NCBI GenBank assembly: GCA_947624975.1
Contig: CANQMP010000020.1
Coordinates: 1-32,754 of the forward strand
DNA length: 32,754 nucleotides
Direction: 5' to 3'
Source of the DNA: Candidatus Gastranaerophilales bacterium
GTDB taxonomy: Bacteria > Cyanobacteriota > Vampirovibrionia > Gastranaerophilales > Gastranaerophilaceae
Both the position numbers and the translations under genes were made by a program. Below are positions 5,554-20,589 of this stretch, piece by piece (the stretch's first letter is position 1; every line of letters starts with the position of its first letter). The notes beneath the pieces were generated by a model. The model had not been told where the DNA came from, did not search any database, and was given only the letters and a program-made list of their open reading frames with translations.

Positions 5554-6162
5554 TTACATCAAATCGTTATATCTGAATAAATTGTATCCCTCAATGTTAT
5601 AACTTGCGTCTATCCCTTTCATATAAATTTCTCTGTCATATATATTTTCGGTTAAAGCATTTTTTAAAATCACTTTAATTTCGGTATTTTTAATCGGACT
5701 GCGTTCCATTGCAAGCAGATAATCGGTTTTGTCAACGCTGTTCCAGTCGACTACCATATTAAGTTCTTTTTTGAAAATCAAATCGAGCCAAATTCTCATA
5801 CTTCTGCCGTTACCTTCTCTGAAAGGATGTGCAATATTCATTTCGACATATTTTTCAATAATTTCGTCAAAAGTTGACTGCGGCATCTTATCAATATTTT
5901 CAATGGCTGTTTCAAGATACATTACGGGAGCAAAGCGAAAATTCCCTTTTGCCAAATTAACCGTTCTTATTTTACCTGCAAAATCATAGATTTCATCAAA
6001 TAAAAACTTGTGAATTTTTGAAAGTGTTTCAAAAGTGCCGGCTTCAAACTTATCAGATATCCCTTTCTCAAAAAGTTCATAAGCTTTTTTTTTGCTTATT
6101 CTTTCTTCTTCTCTTGCAAGTTCGGCAGAATTTTGTATTCCGAGTTTGTTTTCTAAAACCAT
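5554..6162 (-). CDS. Fic-family AMP-transferase, class III-like autoinhibited (202 aa)
   Basis: The active-site loop HPFREGNGR is at residues 112-120 (catalytic His112), within a Fic fold aligning from memory along its whole length with Neisseria NmFic ('YVEMNIAHPF', 'IWLDLIFKK', 'AMERSP'). The C-terminus carries S187-x3-E191-G192, matching the class III inhibitory motif (S/T)xxxE(G/N), so activity should be restrained by its own C-terminal helix and released by autoAMPylation or monomerisation. Fic enzymes transfer AMP from ATP to protein hydroxyls; DNA gyrase/topoisomerase IV are targets for several. There is no separate antitoxin gene next to it, as expected for class III. The promoter is leaderless (6178-6169). 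Target unknown. Confidence 0.9.
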   Translation of the reverse strand: MVLENKLGIQNSAELAREEERISKKKAYELFEKGISDKFEAGTFETLSKIHKFLFDEIYDFAGKIRTVNLAKGNFRFAPVMYLETAIENIDKMPQSTFDEIIEKYVEMNIAHPFREGNGRSMRIWLDLIFKKELNMVVDWNSVDKTDYLLAMERSPIKNTEIKVILKNALTENIYDREIYMKGIDASYNIEGYNLFRYNDLM

Positions 6163-6168
6163 AGAATA

Positions 6169-6178
6169 ATTATAGCAT
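6169..6178 (-). promoter_or_regulatory. Extended -10 promoter of the Fic gene
   Basis: Minus-strand TGCTATAAT, with TATAAT ending 6 nt before ATG 6162. No Shine-Dalgarno site is present. It sits directly after the terminator hairpin of the acyl-CoA synthetase gene. Confidence 0.7.
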
Positions 6179-6213
6179 AAAAAAGGGGCAGGTTATAGAA
6201 CCTGCCCTTTTTG
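6177..6213 (-). terminator. Strong terminator after the acyl-CoA synthetase gene
   Basis: Stem GGGCAGGTT with AACCTGCCC, flanked by A and T runs on both sides, 12 bp after the stop codon at 6225. It separates the synthetase operon from the Fic gene. Confidence 0.85.
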
Positions 6214-6224
6214 TTATAACGTAA

Positions 6225-8405
6225 TTATTTACCGCAGCTTGTGCAAGTGCAGTTAAGTTCGCCGCAACCGCAATTACAGCTCAAAGCTTCTTTTGCTTCT
6301 TCAAGTCTTACCTTGATACGTCCGTCGACCGCAATTCCTTCGCCCGTAGTTTCGGAAATCAACAACGGGTTAATGTCGAGTTCGTCTATGAACTTGTAAT
6401 CGCTGACGAGCTGTGATAATCTGAGTAAAGTTTCCTGAATTTGGTTAATTTGTGCCGGTTTAGTACCTCTCGCGCCTTCCAAAAGTTTGTATGCCTTGAC
6501 TGATTTAATCATTTCTTCGGCATCAACATCGGTTAAAGGTGCAATTCTGAATGTTACGTCTTTCATAACTTCAACGAACACACCGCCTAAGCCGAACATC
6601 ATCATCGGACCGTATTGCGGGTCTGTTGCGATACCGCAAACCATTTCACGAGAGCCTTTAACCATTTCCTGAATGATTACGCCTTCCAAACCGTCAAGAA
6701 GTCCTTTAGCTTCAAGTCTTTCAAGAAGTCCTTTGTATTCCCTTCTCAACTGTTCTTCGGATTTGATGTTTACGACAACACCGCCTACATCGGTTTTGTG
6801 AGAAGTCGTTTTGGAAGTCATTTTCATAACTACAGGGTAGCCGATGGAGTTTCCGAGGTTTACAACTTCTTCTTCGTTTGTTGCAAGTCCGTATTTGCAA
6901 GCTCTTATGCCGTAAGCCTGCAAAACATCTATACTTTCAAGCGTTGTAAGCTGTGCTCTGCCTTCCGAAATTGACTTTCTTATGATATTTTCAACTTTTT
7001 CTCTGTCAACATCGTAGCAGGGAATTTTGCCTTCAGGTCTTTCCTGCCATTTTCTCTGTTGATTAAGTCTGTTAAATCCGTCAGCAGCCTGTTCTGCGTA
7101 CATAAAGAACGGCATGTTAACTTCCATATCGGAAAGTTTTGAGAAAAATTCATTTGTCGTCATAAATACGCCGATAACAGGTTTATGCGGATATTGAGCT
7201 TTAATTTCCATAACTGCTTTTGCAACGTCAATGTCTTTCAAGCCTAAGAACGGCAAGTAAATTACCATAATCATATCGACATTTTCATCTGCAATAACCG
7301 TTTCAAGCGTTTGTTTATAGTGTTCGATAGGTGCTGATGCGATCATATCTATCGGGTTTTTAACCGATGCCGCAGACGGTAAGAAACTTCTCAATTTGTC
7401 TTTTGTAGCATCGGAAATTTTAGCCATTTGCATACCGTATTCACAAACCGCATCGGTTGCCATAATTCCGGGGCCGCCCGAGTTTGTGATAATAGCAACT
7501 CTATCGCCTTTCGGAATCGGGCAGTTAGCAAAAACTTTTGCTGTTGCAAAGAGGTTTTCAAGAGAAAATTCTCTTATAACGCCTGACTGATTAAGTAATG
7601 CCGCAGCAGCCTTGTCAGCACCTGCAAGTGAGCCTGTGTGAGAAGACGCAGCAGAAGCACCCGCAGCCGAACGTCCCGATTTCAAAGCCAAAATCGGTTT
7701 TTTCTTGGTAACACGTGATGCCAAACGTCTGAAATTAGACGGGTTCTGGATAGATTCCATATAAAGAAGAATTTGTTGAACGTCATCTTCGTTTTCCCAG
7801 TATTCGATAGCTGTTTCAGCGTTAACGTCAGCCTGATTACCGATAGAAATGAACTGTGCAAAACCTAAGTTAAGGTCTTTCAAGATATTCAAAATACCGC
7901 CGCCTAACGCACCTGACTGAGATACAAAGCCGATGTTACCTCTTTCGGGCAAAGATTCGGCGAAACAGCCGTCCATTCTGATATCGGGGTGAGTGTTAAC
8001 AACGCCCAAACAGTTCGGGCCGACACATCTCATGCCGTATTCTCTTACTTTTGCAAGAAGTTGTTTTTCGGCTTCCGCACCTTCTTTTCCTGTTTCTTTA
8101 AAGCCTGCGGTGATTATGCACAAGCCCTCAATACCTTTTGCATGGCATTGGTCGATAGTGTCGAGTACAAATCTTGCGTTGACAACGATAATCGCCAAAT
8201 CAACTTCATCGGGGATTTCACCGACCGATGTGTAAGCCTGTAACCCTTCGATAATTCCGCCTTTAGGGTTAACAGGGTAAATCTTACCGTTGAATTTGTA
8301 CTCTTGAAGTCTTTTCATAATGTCGGAACCGATTGTGTGTTCCTTTGTTGATGCACCGATAACCGCAATAGATTTCGGTTTCATGATTTTGTCTAAATTG
8401 CTCAT
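6225..8405 (-). CDS. ADP-forming acetate/acyl-CoA synthetase, fused alpha-beta
   Basis: The enzyme converts acyl-CoA, ADP and phosphate to acid, CoA and ATP (reversible), conserving energy from acetyl-CoA in fermentation. Domains in order: CoA-binding Rossmann domain (residues 5-140, 'SIAVIGAS'), succinyl-CoA-ligase-like domains (150-450) with the phosphorylated His256 in SSHTGSLAG, and a C-terminal ATP-grasp domain (about 490-700; 'YPVVMKMTS', 'DINPLLIS'). The last 17 residues form an added tail with six cysteines (C710, C712, C714, C719, C721, C724), unusual for the family and probably metal-binding. An AAAGGAT site precedes the ATG. It lies 15 bp after the radical SAM gene, in the same operon, and ends in the terminator at 6177-6213. 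Confidence 0.93.
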   Translation of the reverse strand: MSNLDKIMKPKSIAVIGASTKEHTIGSDIMKRLQEYKFNGKIYPVNPKGGIIEGLQAYTSVGEIPDEVDLAIIVVNARFVLDTIDQCHAKGIEGLCIITAGFKETGKEGAEAEKQLLAKVREYGMRCVGPNCLGVVNTHPDIRMDGCFAESLPERGNIGFVSQSGALGGGILNILKDLNLGFAQFISIGNQADVNAETAIEYWENEDDVQQILLYMESIQNPSNFRRLASRVTKKKPILALKSGRSAAGASAASSHTGSLAGADKAAAALLNQSGVIREFSLENLFATAKVFANCPIPKGDRVAIITNSGGPGIMATDAVCEYGMQMAKISDATKDKLRSFLPSAASVKNPIDMIASAPIEHYKQTLETVIADENVDMIMVIYLPFLGLKDIDVAKAVMEIKAQYPHKPVIGVFMTTNEFFSKLSDMEVNMPFFMYAEQAADGFNRLNQQRKWQERPEGKIPCYDVDREKVENIIRKSISEGRAQLTTLESIDVLQAYGIRACKYGLATNEEEVVNLGNSIGYPVVMKMTSKTTSHKTDVGGVVVNIKSEEQLRREYKGLLERLEAKGLLDGLEGVIIQEMVKGSREMVCGIATDPQYGPMMMFGLGGVFVEVMKDVTFRIAPLTDVDAEEMIKSVKAYKLLEGARGTKPAQINQIQETLLRLSQLVSDYKFIDELDINPLLISETTGEGIAVDGRIKVRLEEAKEALSCNCGCGELNCTCTSCGK

Positions 8406-9417: not shown

Positions 9418-10102
9418 ATGAACAAAGAAAAACTCTCACAAAAAAACGGGTTCACATTAGCAGAGGTTTTAATCACTCTTGGAATTATCGGTGTCGTTGC
9501 GGCGTTGACTATCCCAACGCTTGTTCAAAATTATCAGGAAAAAGTTACCGTAAACAAAGTAAAAAAAATGTATTCAACATTAAGCAACGCTTATGAACTT
9601 ATCAAAATTGATAACGGAGATTACAGTCAATGGGGTATCGGAACAGATACTAAAGATGACGCATTGAGTTTAAGAGAAAAATTTGAAAAATACCTTATCT
9701 AAATTATGTGATACCCCCGAAGATTTAAAAGCGTGTGGTGTTGCAGACGTTATTTATCAGAATTATGATAAAAAAGTAGATGTTATATCTCCAAGCCTAA
9801 AAAATAGTTGGTTTGCGGTAGGTATGTTACTTAACGATGGTAGCAGTCTGTACTTTAATAATGATAGACGCTTGGTTATAGGTTATGACGTAAACGGTCT
9901 CAAAGCCCCAAATACATTCGGCATAGATATTTTCCCTTTTGAAATTTGGAATGATGAACCGTTGTTAGTTCCTGCATGCGGAAATAGTAAAAATAGCCAA
10001 GACGTTATATTATCAAGTTGTATAACAATAAAAACAGGTGGCAACGGTTACTGTTGTACAACAATGGTTGTTCGGGAAGGCAACATGGATTATCTTAAAT
10101 AA
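9418..10102 (+). pseudogene. Type IV prepilin-like protein, disrupted by a frameshift
   Basis: The first frame (9418-9702) gives a class III signal, KNGFTLAEVLITLGIIGV, with prepilin peptidase cleavage expected between Gly11 and Phe12, then the assembly helix. It stops at TAA just after 'REKFEKYLI'. A second frame offset by +1 continues from about 9683 to 10102 with 'KLCDTPEDLKACG', 'GYDVNGLKAPNTFGIDIF' and a Cys-rich end ('VPACGNS', 'NGYCCTT'), as expected for the C-terminal half of the same family. Removing one base between about 9677 and 9700 (two A5 runs are present) restores one ORF of about 227 aa. It has a good AAAGGG site and a consensus promoter. Either a genuine mutation or a homopolymer sequencing error. 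Confidence 0.8.
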
Positions 10103-16551: not shown

Positions 16552-17202
16552 TTAGCTCCTTTCTATTTTGTCTTTTAATTCCTGAAGTTCATATTTTAAA
16601 CGATTTAATTCGCAGGTAACAGGGTCGGGTATTCTGTTGTGCATAAGAATTCCGTTTTCGTCCTGAACTTTTTGCTGAACAATTCTTCCCGGAACTCCGA
16701 CAACCGTGGCATTATCGGGAACATTGTCAATAACAACCGAGCCTGCACCGACTCTTACGTTGTTTCCGAGCGTAATATTTCCGAGAACTTTTGCTCCTGC
16801 ACCGACTATAACTCCGTTACCAAGAGTTGGATGGCGTTTGCCGTGTTCTTTTCCCGTTCCGCCGAGAGTTACCTGCTGATATATCAAAACATCATCACCA
16901 ATTTCGGTTGTTTCGCCTATTACAACGCCTTCACCATGGTCGATAAAAAATCTTCTTCCGATTTTTGAGGCGGGATGAATTTCTATTCCGGTTATTATTC
17001 TTGTAATGTATGAAATTATCCGCGGAAAAAGAGGAATATGCCATTTGTAAAGCTTGTGAGCCAAGCGATAAGCAACCAGAGCATGCAACCCCGGATAGCA
17101 AAAAATCACTTCCAGAATGTTATTTGCCGCAGGATCTTTGTCATAGATTACCTGAATATCCTCTTTAACTTTATTTATTCCTCGTTTTAACGTTTCTATC
17201 AT
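16552..17202 (-). CDS. cysE: Serine O-acetyltransferase CysE (216 aa)
   Basis: It makes O-acetylserine from serine and acetyl-CoA, the first step of cysteine synthesis. The N-terminal helical region (1-75) leads into left-handed beta-helix hexapeptide repeats (76-175). Active-site residues are visible in 'FFIDHGEGVVIGET' (D88, H89), followed by 'VTLGGTGKEHGKRHPTLG' and 'VGAGAKVLGNI'. The C-terminal helix extends to residue 216. The length suits the shorter CysE/SAT form. Its ATG overlaps the tyrS stop (ATGA), so it is translationally coupled to tyrS. No cysK was seen in the window. Confidence 0.93.
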   Translation of the reverse strand: MIETLKRGINKVKEDIQVIYDKDPAANNILEVIFCYPGLHALVAYRLAHKLYKWHIPLFPRIISYITRIITGIEIHPASKIGRRFFIDHGEGVVIGETTEIGDDVLIYQQVTLGGTGKEHGKRHPTLGNGVIVGAGAKVLGNITLGNNVRVGAGSVVIDNVPDNATVVGVPGRIVQQKVQDENGILMHNRIPDPVTCELNRLKYELQELKDKIERS

Positions 17203-18416
17203 ATCAATTTTGCAAATTTTCGTTTTCCTGCCTGTAATACTACATTTTCTTTAATGTCAAATACATAACCCGTGTCGGTAATTTTTTCACCGTCAACTTT
17301 AACACCTCCGCCTTGAATAAGACGTTTTGCCTCGCCTCTGCTTGATGTAAATTGAAGTTCGGTTAAAACATCAAGAATATTTTTACCGTTCATGCCGGAA
17401 ATTTGTTCGATATCATCGGGAATTCTTTTATTTGACACAACGTTAACAAATGCATCCTGACCGCGTTTTGCGCCTTCTTCACCGTGGTATTCTTTTGTAA
17501 TTGTGTATGCAAGCCGCATTTTAATATCACGCGGATTTATTGAACCTTCGGTAATCTGTTTATCAATTTTTTCAAGTTCTTCTTTTGAAGCATCTGTTAA
17601 CAAGCTGAAATACCTTGATATAAGGTTATCGGGTATACTCATAAGTTTTCCGAACATGTCAACTTCGCTGTCTGTCAGAGAAATGCAGTGTTCGGGATAA
17701 GTTTTAGACATTTTAACCACGCCGTCCGTACCTTCCAACAGCGGTAAAAGCATAACGAGTTGAGGGTATTTTTTACCGTAAGCTGCTTGAATATCACGAC
17801 CCAAAAGCGTGTTAAACCTCTGATCCGTTCCGCCAAGCTCAATATCGGAATTAATTGCCACGGAATCATAAGCCTGCATAAGCGGATAGAAAAATTCGAC
17901 AATAGAAATCGGACGTCCGTCAGCATACCTTTTTGCAAAATCATCACGGGTCATCATTTGTGCAACCGTAACCTGTGCCGTCAGTTTCAAAAGTTCCGTA
18001 AAACTCATTGAATGCAGCCAGTCTGCGTTATTTACGACTTCTGCATCAGAAACATCCAAAACTTTTGACATCTGTTCAAAATATGATTTTGCGTTTTCTT
18101 CGACCTGTTCTTTTGTCAAAGCGGGACGGGTTTCGGATTTTCCTGACGGATCGCCTACCATAGCCGTTGCACCGCCGACGATTAAGACTATTTTATGCCC
18201 GAGATTTTGGAATTCTTTTAACTTTCTCATAACAACCGTATGTCCTAAATGCAGGTCGGGTCTTGTCGGATCCATGCCAAGTTTAATGCGCAAAGGTGTA
18301 TTTGTGTCATGCGAATATTGTAATTTTACAGCCAGTTCTTCTATTCCGCCGGGTAAAACTTCCGCATTTCTCGTTAAATGTTTTGCCTGTTGTATAAATT
18401 CTTCTCTTATTTCCAT
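17199..18416 (-). CDS. tyrS: Tyrosyl-tRNA synthetase, TyrZ/long-type (405 aa)
   Basis: This class I aminoacyl-tRNA synthetase charges tRNA-Tyr. The HIGH motif is HLGH (about 57-60) in 'GMDPTRPDLHLGHTVVM'. The KMSKS loop reads KMSKT (about 234-238). A C-terminal S4 RNA-binding domain follows (about 340-405; 'GEAKRLIQGGGVKVDG'). The 405-residue length fits the second TyrRS subfamily. The ATG has GGAGAA upstream, and an extended -10 (TGCTATAAT) lies around 18442-18450, giving a short leader. No T-box is visible. It heads the tyrS-cysE-small gene operon. Confidence 0.94.
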   Translation of the reverse strand: MEIREEFIQQAKHLTRNAEVLPGGIEELAVKLQYSHDTNTPLRIKLGMDPTRPDLHLGHTVVMRKLKEFQNLGHKIVLIVGGATAMVGDPSGKSETRPALTKEQVEENAKSYFEQMSKVLDVSDAEVVNNADWLHSMSFTELLKLTAQVTVAQMMTRDDFAKRYADGRPISIVEFFYPLMQAYDSVAINSDIELGGTDQRFNTLLGRDIQAAYGKKYPQLVMLLPLLEGTDGVVKMSKTYPEHCISLTDSEVDMFGKLMSIPDNLISRYFSLLTDASKEELEKIDKQITEGSINPRDIKMRLAYTITKEYHGEEGAKRGQDAFVNVVSNKRIPDDIEQISGMNGKNILDVLTELQFTSSRGEAKRLIQGGGVKVDGEKITDTGYVFDIKENVVLQAGKRKFAKLI

Positions 18417-18481: not shown

Positions 18482-19000
18482 ATGATTAATAAAATAAATT
18501 TTACTGGAATACGCAATATCGCAGCAGCAAACTTTACAAGAAACAAATTACCTTCTGAAAGTTTGTCCATGACTTTAAAAAATGATTTAAACGACAATAC
18601 TTTGGATGAATTTAAAAGTGCCGTCAGAAAATCAGGGAATTCTGATTTTATTGACTGGGAATATCCTGATGTTTTGAATATCGAAAATGCTTATGATGAT
18701 ATCGCTAAAACCAACAAGCTCTATATCAACGGTATATTTTTAAAGTCTACCGACAAAAATCTTCCGCTATTTTCATTTATCGCGAAAATAACCGGAAGAA
18801 TTGCAGATATGAAAGATAAGGATTTTATTGTTAACGAAACATATAAAGAATACTGCGTAAAAGATACTCTGATATACGGTAAAAAATTTCCCAAAGATAC
18901 AGATATGAAAGAATTTTTCGATTCGGATGGGGCGAAATTTTGTGCCGAAAATATCAACGCACGCATTGATGATGTTATGAGAGAATACTTTGAAATCTAA
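18482..19000 (+). CDS. NFTG-type protein of unknown function (172 aa)
   Basis: It begins MINKINFTGIRNIAAANFTR, sharing the 'N-F-T-G' start and nearby small/basic residues with the EF-hand protein at 4876-5472. I believe this N-terminal style is common in Gastranaerophilales. The rest is a soluble, charged alpha/beta protein with two Cys (C115 region and near 160) and no recognised motif. There is no clear Shine-Dalgarno site; a weak TTATAC box 5 nt before the ATG would again fit a leaderless start. It is a single gene between divergent tyrS and the terminator at 19003-19027. Confidence 0.7.
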   Translation: MINKINFTGIRNIAAANFTRNKLPSESLSMTLKNDLNDNTLDEFKSAVRKSGNSDFIDWEYPDVLNIENAYDDIAKTNKLYINGIFLKSTDKNLPLFSFIAKITGRIADMKDKDFIVNETYKEYCVKDTLIYGKKFPKDTDMKEFFDSDGAKFCAENINARIDDVMREYFEI

Positions 19001-19002
19001 AA

Positions 19003-19027
19003 AAAGACCGATTTTAAATCGGTCTTT
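19003..19027. terminator. Bidirectional terminator
   Basis: Stem AAAGACCGATT (19003-19013) with AATCGGTCTTT (19017-19027), 3-nt loop, with an A run to the left. It serves the 18482 gene and the convergent tail-fibre pair. Confidence 0.8.
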
Positions 19028-19036
19028 CGCAGTGTT

Positions 19037-19444
19037 TTATGAAATTTTTGAAAGTTCGGCACGCAAATTTTCGGCTATGGAATTATAATATTCAAGCCAG
19101 CTTATTCCGTCCTCTTTTTCTGACGGTTCGGCAACTGCTCTTATGCGTTTTTTGTCCAATTCTTCAAGCTGTGCTTCTAATTCAGCTTTCTTTGCCGAAT
19201 TTTGTTTAGCGATTTTTTTCTTTTGAACTTCATCGTCAGTTAATTTTTTCCAAACATTATTTTCAAAAGAATATTCATCTTCATCAACCGCTATCACACT
19301 GTTGTTGAAGGGGATGATCATTTTGCCGAGGTTTTGTTCATTCAGCAGTAACCACCAGTATTCATCGGTAATTTCAATAGCATTTTCAAAATTTTCTTTA
19401 TAAAAACCGTAGTCTTTGTTGTTTTTTGTTCCGTAATATTTCAT
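19037..19444 (-). CDS. Phage tail-fibre assembly-like protein (135 aa)
   Basis: An N-terminal globular part (1-75; 'EITDEYWWLLLNEQNLGK', 'NNVWKKLTDDE') is followed by a helical Lys/Glu/Ala segment and a C-terminal 'LEELDKKRIRAVAEPSEKED' stretch. This layout (short domain, then 'ELDKKRIRA' helix) is typical of tail-fibre assembly/chaperone proteins and small tail accessory proteins. It follows the tail-fibre gene by 10 bp with an AAGGAGG site, so the two are coexpressed. No other phage gene surrounds them. The assembly role is inferred from context and composition. Confidence 0.65.
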   Translation of the reverse strand: MKYYGTKNNKDYGFYKENFENAIEITDEYWWLLLNEQNLGKMIIPFNNSVIAVDEDEYSFENNVWKKLTDDEVQKKKIAKQNSAKKAELEAQLEELDKKRIRAVAEPSEKEDGISWLEYYNSIAENLRAELSKIS

Positions 19445-19454
19445 TTTTTCCTCC

Positions 19455-20144
19455 TTAATACCCGAATGCTACCCAGTTTTGCGATGAGAATACACCTGCA
19501 GATGCAAGCGAAAAGCCTGTTAACGATTGAGATGAAATTCCCGTATCACTTCTTGAAAATGAACTGCTTTGTCCGTTTTTTGCACACACGGGCGAGCCGA
19601 CCGTATTAAAAGCAATAGGATAAGTCACGGAGCCGCTCGATTTATTTCCCCATTGTATAACCAAACCGTTTGGCATTTCGAGATATCCGGGGTTAGCAAG
19701 GTTAATATTTCCCGTGTTAGAACTCCAAGCACTCCAGCTTTCATCTTTAAAACTTCTTGTATATATTTCTGAGTTTTCTCCGTATGAAAACCAAATTTGT
19801 TTCACTGCCGTATCCGTTCCCGTAACGAATAAAATCCCTTCTGCTCCTTCACTCGGGCTGTTTGAGGGAGCGGTTTCGGATGTAAATATGTATGTTCCTT
19901 TCGTTTTGTAATCGTTTAAATCCGTTGCTGGTTCTTCAACATCGTGTTCGGTTATCAATTCCGTTTTGTCAGCTTTTGTTTCCGTAATTTCTTTAACTTT
20001 TCCGTTTATTTCGTCAATATCATGCGAAACATCACTATTATTTTTTTCAATGGCATTAGCTACGGAAATAAAATTTGCGTTTACTTCACTTGCTTTAGCC
20101 TTTGTTCCGGGGATAAAAGAATACGGTATCATTTGATTAGTCAT
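19455..20144 (-). CDS. Phage tail fibre-like protein (229 aa)
   Basis: The N-terminus 'MIPYSFIPGTKAKASEVNANF' is a phage tail-fibre attachment pattern. It is followed by a coiled coil (30-60) and a central beta-rich unit resembling a pyocin/tail-knob repeat ('LNDYKTKGTYIFTSETAPSN'; 'IWFSYGENSEIYTRSFKDES'). The C-terminal domain (about 150-229; 'GYLEMPNGLVIQWG', 'VTYPIAFNT', 'NWVAFGY') matches the gp53-like tail-fibre receptor-binding fold. An AAAGGG site precedes the ATG. It stands with its assembly partner in an otherwise chromosomal neighbourhood, so it is either a prophage remnant or a captured fibre cassette. Confidence 0.8.
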   Translation of the reverse strand: MTNQMIPYSFIPGTKAKASEVNANFISVANAIEKNNSDVSHDIDEINGKVKEITETKADKTELITEHDVEEPATDLNDYKTKGTYIFTSETAPSNSPSEGAEGILFVTGTDTAVKQIWFSYGENSEIYTRSFKDESWSAWSSNTGNINLANPGYLEMPNGLVIQWGNKSSGSVTYPIAFNTVGSPVCAKNGQSSSFSRSDTGISSQSLTGFSLASAGVFSSQNWVAFGY

Positions 20145-20208
20145 AATTTCCCTTTCCGACTAATTCAATGAATAATGTAAAAGGCGTTTGTGTGATTATA
20201 ACACGGAT

Positions 20209-20238
20209 TTGCCAAAACTGTCAATGTTGTGTTATATT
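20209..20238 (+). promoter_or_regulatory. acpS promoter, leaderless geometry
   Basis: TTGCCA (20209-20214), 18-bp spacer, TATATT (20233-20238), then 6 nt to ATG 20245. No Shine-Dalgarno site. Confidence 0.7.
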
Positions 20239-20244
20239 TTTTCT

Positions 20245-20589
20245 ATGGCAATAGGAATTGATATAGAAGATATTTCAAGGTTTAAAGACAAACCCGAAGC
20301 ATTTATCAATAGAGTTTTTACAGTAAACGAGATTAGTTATTGCACAGGGTATGCAAATCCCGAAAGTCATTTTGCCGTAAGGTTTTGTGCAAAGGAAGCC
20401 GTTATAAAGGCTCTGTCGGGACTTGATATAAAAGGAGTTGCAATTTCCGATATAGAAATTTATCTTGATAAAAATAATTGTCCGCAAGTCCGTATTTTAA
20501 AAGAACTTAAACGGCAGATTGTTTTTGAGGTAAGCCTTTCTCATGACAGAACAAAAGCTGTTGCATTTGTTACCGCACATTTACCATAG
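20245..20589 (+). CDS. acpS: Holo-[acyl-carrier-protein] synthase AcpS (114 aa)
   Basis: It transfers 4'-phosphopantetheine from CoA to apo-ACP. Signature motifs are 'MAIGIDIEDISRF' (metal-binding Asp6) and 'HFAVRFCAKEAVIKAL' (Glu51, Lys50), plus C-terminal 'VSLSHDRTKAVAFV'. The length of 114 aa is normal for AcpS. The start is ATG 20245; an in-frame ATG at 20188 would add 19 unrelated residues upstream of the promoter. The 3' end overlaps the convergent pheA by 20 bp. Confidence 0.93.
   Translation: MAIGIDIEDISRFKDKPEAFINRVFTVNEISYCTGYANPESHFAVRFCAKEAVIKALSGLDIKGVAISDIEIYLDKNNCPQVRILKELKRQIVFEVSLSHDRTKAVAFVTAHLP

Follow-up and report, generated by a model that had tools for sequence, protein, structure and literature searches.

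A lone phage-type tail-fiber and chaperone cassette, fixed at a housekeeping locus of gut Gastranaerophilales, looks like an appropriated viral part

When phage fiber genes turn up in bacteria, they are commonly put down as the debris of prophages. The cassette described here is conserved, positionally fixed and particle-less in uncultured gut bacteria, and it raises the question of what use a lone receptor-binding protein could be to a bacterium. It lies in a stretch of 32,754 nucleotides (the window) at positions 1 to 32,754 of contig CANQMP010000020.1 from a Candidatus Gastranaerophilales bacterium (GCA_947624975.1). The original prediction, made from the sequence of this window, described two intact tail-type genes standing alone among housekeeping genes, with Shine-Dalgarno-like sites and a terminator, and offered a remnant, a donor for fiber switching or part of a device encoded elsewhere as explanations. 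The description was borne out by the open reading frames (ORFs), family searches and RNA folding; the explanations fared less well. As we set out below, the cassette looks like an appropriated viral part rather than the remnant of a decaying virus.

On the minus strand, an intact fiber gene is followed, after a gap of 10 bp, by a Tfa-type chaperone gene, and a Shine-Dalgarno-like sequence lies 5' of each (Table 1). The terminator hairpin is stable in a folding test (z -5.5; 0/200 shuffles). The neighbors are housekeeping genes, named by eye from their translations: tyrS, serOAT (serine-acetyltransferase-like), acpS, pheA and glmM. By eye, we recognized no head, tail or lysis ORF near the cassette and no recombinase ORF at the locus; nor were a conserved secretion gene or tailocin sheath, tube and baseplate genes recognized there. 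An Rfam search of the whole window gave no match, and three proteins compared with the PADLOC defense families gave none either. A repeat scan of the locus turned up no convincing phase-variation or insertion repeats, neither flanking nor inverted repeats of the sort that insertion leaves, and nothing resembling the template repeat of a diversity-generating retroelement. The 172-aa neighbor, which has no Pfam match, evolves fast; it is found at many but not all loci and is duplicated in some (e.g., L108 and L111). Elsewhere in the window, at 9418-10102 (+), the ORFs 9418-9702 and 9683-10102 overlap in different frames and together look like one prepilin-like protein, a pattern that a frameshift or an assembly error would produce.

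Table 1. Coordinates of the cassette, its signals and its neighbors in the window
Feature	Position	Strand	Remarks
Fiber gene	19455-20144	-	229 aa; Pfam Gp53-like_C, AlphaFold2 model, fold matches
Conserved N-terminal anchor	20070..20144	-	MTNxMIPYSFxPGTKAKAxEVNANF; residues 1-25; some positions do not vary between genera, nor in a podophage-like contig
Tfa-type fiber chaperone gene	19037-19444	-	135 aa; phrog_188, AlphaFold2, relatives behind phage fibers
Sigma-70 promoter, TTGACA-18-TATAAT with extended -10 (TG)	20195-20224	-	12/12 consensus match
5' leader	20145..20187	-	Conserved ATTCATT.AA.TTAGTC.GAAAGG directly 5' of the start codon; carries the ribosome-binding site
Terminator hairpin	19002-19028		12-bp stem; common to the cassette and the convergent 172-aa gene
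acpS, neighbor	20188..20589	+	ORF call over-extended upstream; real start probably ~20247
tyrS, neighbor on the opposite side	17199..18416	-	Found at most loci
172-aa host-type gene, convergent with the cassette	18482-19000	+	Fast-evolving; no Pfam match

The fiber protein matched Gp53-like_C in Pfam (4.5e-9, above the curated cut-off) and several tail-fiber families in PHROG (1.5e-9 and weaker). It consists of the anchor (residues 1 to 25), a coiled-coil helix (18 to 56), a knob (about 61 to 144) and a lectin-like foot (about 147 to 229). The AlphaFold2 monomer model had a mean pLDDT of 80, low at residues 1 to 5 and 145 to 149; the native protein would presumably be a trimer. The best fold matches of the model were the R1 and R2 pyocin fibers (Foldseek, 7.5e-8 to 9e-7), and VIA comparison with pyocin fibers 6cl5, 6ct8 and 6cl6 gave Z scores of 11.2 to 11.5, with a global rmsd of about 48 that is meaningless because knob and foot are placed differently and allow no rigid superposition. 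Taken separately, the knob matched the fiber knobs of AS12, P68 and phi11 (Z 9.7 to 10.4, rmsd 2.2 to 3.2), and the foot matched 6cxb (Z 8.8) and 4mtm (Z 8.5 over 77 residues, rmsd 2.6; PDB profile search, 1.4e-5). A weaker match joined the foot to the Helix agglutinins, which are H-type lectins that bind GalNAc (Z 5.6 to 6.1); this likeness is one of fold and leaves the ligand of the foot unshown. No signal peptide or lipobox was seen on the fiber by eye. The protein thus has the C-terminal domain and the knob-and-foot fold of a tail fiber, and its gene lies outside any tail gene cluster.

The 135-aa protein did not match the fiber-assembly families of Pfam and matched phrog_188, "tail fiber assembly," weakly in PHROG (4.6e-4). 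Its profile, however, retrieves phage and prophage proteins encoded directly after fiber genes, including some on viral contigs. Its AlphaFold2 model (pLDDT 88) is beta-rich in the N-terminal part and helical in the C-terminal part; against the PDB, the model found no fold below an E value of 0.5 and the sequence found no credible match. The chaperone gene lay directly 3' of the fiber gene at all 30 genus loci fetched; in one copy (L008), codon 3 is a stop. Order-wide, a Tfa-type match stood beside the fiber at 65 of 80 loci (the best 80 of 101). In the three that were read of the 15 loci lacking such a match (L128, L139 and L153), another ORF of 162 to 222 aa follows the fiber, and the replacement ORF matched phrog_6034 in both cases tested. 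Since this family also matches the fiber-assembly protein of viral contig L033 and takes the place of the Tfa neighbor, the kind of chaperone appears to vary along with the fiber tip.

Comparing the locus in relatives, as proposed with the original prediction, gave a consistent picture within the genus. Among 58 related genomes searched, the fiber was present in 31/33 from the genus, in one copy each and with no internal stop; outside the genus, 1 of 25 genomes gave short N-terminal matches only. At all 30 genus loci fetched, fiber and chaperone genes were adjacent, on one strand and between the same housekeeping flanks, and in 19 of 20 genus genomes searched for Gp53-like_C the copy at this locus was the sole one found. 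The genomes are one per species and mostly metagenome bins, and relatives in these counts are not independent events. Our two alignments hold 29 (A1) and 28 (A2) of the 30 loci: L006, which is near-identical to L004, was left out of both, and the early-stop locus L008 out of A2. Two apparent absences stand apart: the contig of G013 stops close to the site, and G029 yielded only a distant tyrS.

The locus extends well beyond the genus. Fiber-profile matches occurred in 151 of 383 genomes of the order, outside the genus mostly over the first 40 to 90 residues or the C-terminal part only and in proteins of differing length. With a 52-position anchor profile, 28 of 41 genera gave matches, in 163 of the 383 family genomes, a count in which some matches may be prophage fibers. 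Among the best 80 of 101 order-wide loci, 55 had glmM, pheA or acpS on one side and tyrS or serOAT on the other, 24 showed one flank, and one, cut by a contig end, showed neither. These 80 loci are labeled mostly Gastranaerophilales, Melainabacteria or uncultured bacterium; a few other labels, among them Heliobacteriaceae, Clostridiaceae, Brachyspira and Fusobacterium sp. CAG:439, probably belong to misnamed bins. Twenty loci from other genera comprised 14 with the same neighbors and 6 elsewhere, one of which (L068) has its fiber next to baseplate J within a contractile-tail cluster. Genus g22 includes two genomes, G079 and G089, in which pheA and tyrS flank a cleanly empty site, while the other members of the genus are positive, so the locus is not essential and was either lost there or not always present. 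As a separate observation, some genomes have no tyrS at the locus (L122, L123, L124 and L126; G012, G029, G078, G091, G107, G110 and G112); the tyrS search of these genomes gave only TyrS proteins about 31 to 35% identical, which suggests gene replacement by a distant type.

The front of the cassette is constant and its tip is not. The fiber promoter matched the consensus at 10/12 positions or better in 75 of 80 upstream regions and at 11/12 or better in 65 of 80 (79 loci from the best 80 of 101, plus the window), whereas 0.6% of 1,600 shuffles reached at least 11/12. The fiber promoter is nearer consensus than those of four neighboring genes, for which at least 11/12 was reached in 0/70 (serOAT), 0/62 (tyrS), 4/58 (pheA) and 2/59 (glmM) cases; promoter strength is judged here by the match to the consensus. 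The motif GAAAGG lay near the ATG in 73 of 80 upstream regions when these were aligned. The anchor, about the first 25 residues, is nearly constant across genera; M1, P7, F10, G13, K15, A16, A18, N22, N24 and F25 do not vary at all, and this holds with a podophage-like fiber in the comparison (L131, at a contig end, was excluded from the anchor and promoter counts). Behind it, the tip is swapped for unrelated modules that differ by genus. Of eight fibers scanned from other genera, two gave sub-threshold matches, L063 to Gp53-like and L072 to F5/8 type C; none of the others matched a domain above the cut-off.

Within the genus, the same gradient is visible in the divergence of the proteins. In the 25 of 31 genomes with all four genes compared (acpS was excluded because its starts are wrong), the mean amino acid distance of the fiber was 0.12 over residues 1 to 30, 0.44 over 70 to 150 and 0.49 over 150 to 229; the corresponding values were 0.32 (chaperone), 0.20 (pheA) and 0.18 (glmM). 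The fiber dN/dS was 0.10 to 0.36 wherever dS was finite among the 14 closest pairs. In four close pairs, DNA identity was mostly about 80 to 95% across glmM-pheA-acpS, fell to a minimum of 53 to 62% inside the fiber and recovered partly, to about 70 to 91%, in the chaperone; the stretch of the 172-aa neighbor was also variable in some close pairs. Fiber dS exceeded glmM dS in 7 of 7 pairs with glmM dS below 0.7 (one near-identical pair left out). The higher fiber dS suggests that divergent fiber alleles are exchanged, although codon bias could contribute.

Where might such a module have come from? Searches of viral contigs with single sequences found nothing or no confirmed relative, and alignment searches found 5 and 6 loci. 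Among annotated phages, the fiber matched only two Haemophilus HP2 records, and the chaperone had no match. Four podophage-like viral contigs (L031 to L034) encode a fiber with the cassette-type anchor directly 3' of a protein of 977 to 1286 aa. In L032 to L034 this fiber lies directly 5' of a 191- to 219-aa protein, whose copy in L033 matches fiber-assembly families. By eye, ORFs at the end of L031 resemble Gastranaerophilales proteins, and the small proteins behind L070 and L071, isolated cassettes at other sites, resemble those after the L031 fiber. Given the shared anchor type and these likenesses, we consider a podophage-like virus infecting these hosts the most likely source of the cassette. 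Two arrangements were noted by eye in this material. In L031, a reverse-transcriptase-like ORF lies at 5905-7239 (+) between the fiber and later genes and perhaps belongs to a diversity-generating element. A 5.4-kb contig, L051 (G038:C261), has an anchor-type frame toward both of its ends and transposase-like ORFs in the middle; it may be a Mu-like element or a circular join.

How would the bacterium use it? Our tentative first choice, which we hold somewhat short of even confidence, is that a phage fiber-chaperone module was taken over by the host lineage, is kept at one locus and acts in trans on phage tails. One near-consensus promoter precedes both genes. The chaperone would fold the foot, the foot would bind a surface glycan, and the fiber would dock by its anchor onto tails assembling in the same cell, whether of incoming phages or of induced prophages with compatible anchors. 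Virions would then bear the host fiber and be retargeted or spoiled, and variation of the tip would follow changing surface glycans and phages. Because no export signal is seen by eye, a cytosolic fiber could leave the cell on a particle, and this makes supply in trans our first choice. Besides the podophage-like contigs and the L068 fiber beside baseplate J, the anchor type recurs, weakly, in the genome's own contractile prophage: on contig C24, a Mu-like contractile element encodes a 716-aa fiber that starts with a distantly related anchor (1.3e-4). The fiber frame of this Mu-like element, 719 aa, is on two contigs, L042 (G000:C24) and L184 (G000:C56), which may be two copies or an assembly duplicate. 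A more specific form of in-trans supply, that the constitutive host fiber replaces or competes with the phage receptor-binding protein and misdirects progeny from kin, which would make this a defense or phage-steering locus, is a proposal from sequence that we regard as unlikely. Against supply in trans, baseplate J went undetected in 129 of the 163 anchor-bearing genomes, and the tail partner is only proposed; the anchor is more conserved than glmM, which suggests a constant partner, unlike varied phages; and neither the lack of a defense-family match nor the clean absence of the cassette from G079 and G089 fits it well.

The constant anchor and the lack of an association with tails speak for a non-phage partner, and the main rival is therefore a domesticated adhesin or lectin, which we consider somewhat unlikely. 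The anchor would sit on a constant host partner, such as an envelope or secreted structure, and the foot would bind gut, diet or microbe glycans. Conservation of the anchor across genera and of promoter and leader is consistent with this, as are the likeness of the foot to H-type lectins (Z about 6) and the lack of a link to contractile tails. However, the fiber has neither a signal peptide nor a lipobox by eye, no conserved secretion gene was recognized at the locus, the 172-aa neighbor is missing at many loci, and the anchor is of phage type.

The fiber could also belong to a dispersed, host-kept particle (a tailocin, gene transfer agent or injection device), with its remaining genes at other sites and too diverged to be picked up by the family searches. 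Its fold is that of R-type pyocin fibers, and tailocin fibers and chaperones are likewise variable modules, but we judge this quite unlikely from the distribution of particle genes. In the genus, baseplate J was found in 6/33 genomes (none in the other 27), in the genome of the window inside the Mu-like element; the portal family PF04860 was found in 1/20 and the capsid family PF05065 in 1/33. The SU10-adaptor family PF24175 was found in 0/33, a result that means little since its control was silent. Across 383 family genomes, 34 had both anchor and baseplate J, 129 the anchor only, 64 baseplate J only and 156 neither, so that baseplate J was slightly rarer with the anchor (34/163 versus 64/220; odds ratio 0.64, p 0.076, kinship ignored). 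These figures weaken the suggestion that the cassette is part of a device encoded elsewhere, and a contractile device in particular was rejected, baseplate J being patchy and not associated with the anchor.

A reserve from which resident prophages switch fibers by recombination is improbable in our estimation. In its favor, related anchors occur on phages and prophages of these hosts, prophages of the genus carry chaperones related to that of the cassette, and the genome's own prophage has the distantly related anchor. However, no near-identical exchange between cassette and resident prophage was seen: even the best matches of orphan copies to phage or prophage copies cover only part of the sequence, at about 29 to 69% identity. 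Most genus genomes, moreover, are without baseplate J. A selfish cassette that re-inserts at one spot is very improbable; the clean empty sites of G079 and G089 would fit it, but the locus has no insertion-type repeats and no recombinase ORF recognized by eye, and fiber and chaperone distances track those of glmM (Mantel r 0.56 and 0.75, respectively; 0/999 permutations each; for the foot only, r 0.42, 13/999). The least probable reading, an early-stage prophage remnant, has for it that both genes are of phage type and that head, tail and lysis genes are missing, and is refuted for the genus by synteny, intact single-copy frames, a conserved promoter and dN/dS well below 1, by recurrence of the locus in many genera, and by the fact that no full prophage adjoined it in 80 loci (the best 80 of 101) where one was looked for.

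A role in steering or spoiling phages would be novel for a part of phage origin, and so would one as a gut-glycan lectin. The variable tips are also a natural collection of putative glycan binders.

R-type pyocins have a fiber gene followed by a chaperone gene, variable between relatives. The cassette resembles them in the knob-and-foot fiber fold (Z 11.2 to 11.5) and differs in having no adjoining sheath, tube or baseplate genes, a far shorter fiber and a housekeeping-type promoter. The cryptic prophages of E. coli K-12 hold orphan stf and tfa genes without a full phage, among other prophage relics; in contrast, our cassette has no prophage relics around it and is conserved over a family. We know of no lone fiber-chaperone locus kept family-wide at a fixed site in which promoter and anchor stay constant while the tip varies. 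The component parts are of known kinds. No report of such a locus was found in the literature searched, which for PMC4040986 and PMC9029806 means the parts retrieved by phage terms. The tail fiber gp53 of Acinetobacter phage AP22 shares its C-terminal domain with the cassette fiber (Gp53-like_C, 4mtm); its gene lies within a phage genome, whereas the cassette fiber stands alone in a chromosome. According to PMC9608196, Pam3 gp24 is a minimal one-protein fiber with an N-terminal helical docking domain, and gp25 and other Tfa proteins have a variable N-terminal beta domain and a conserved helical C-terminal domain. The model and family pattern of the cassette chaperone resemble this gp25 layout in domain arrangement, but Pam3, as there described, is a phage with a baseplate, unlike the lone cassette. 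Alteromonas phages are reported (PMC10579305) to exchange a fiber and its cognate chaperone as one module; the cassette, unlike those modules, occupies one set position in a bacterial chromosome, preceded by a promoter and an anchor that stay constant.
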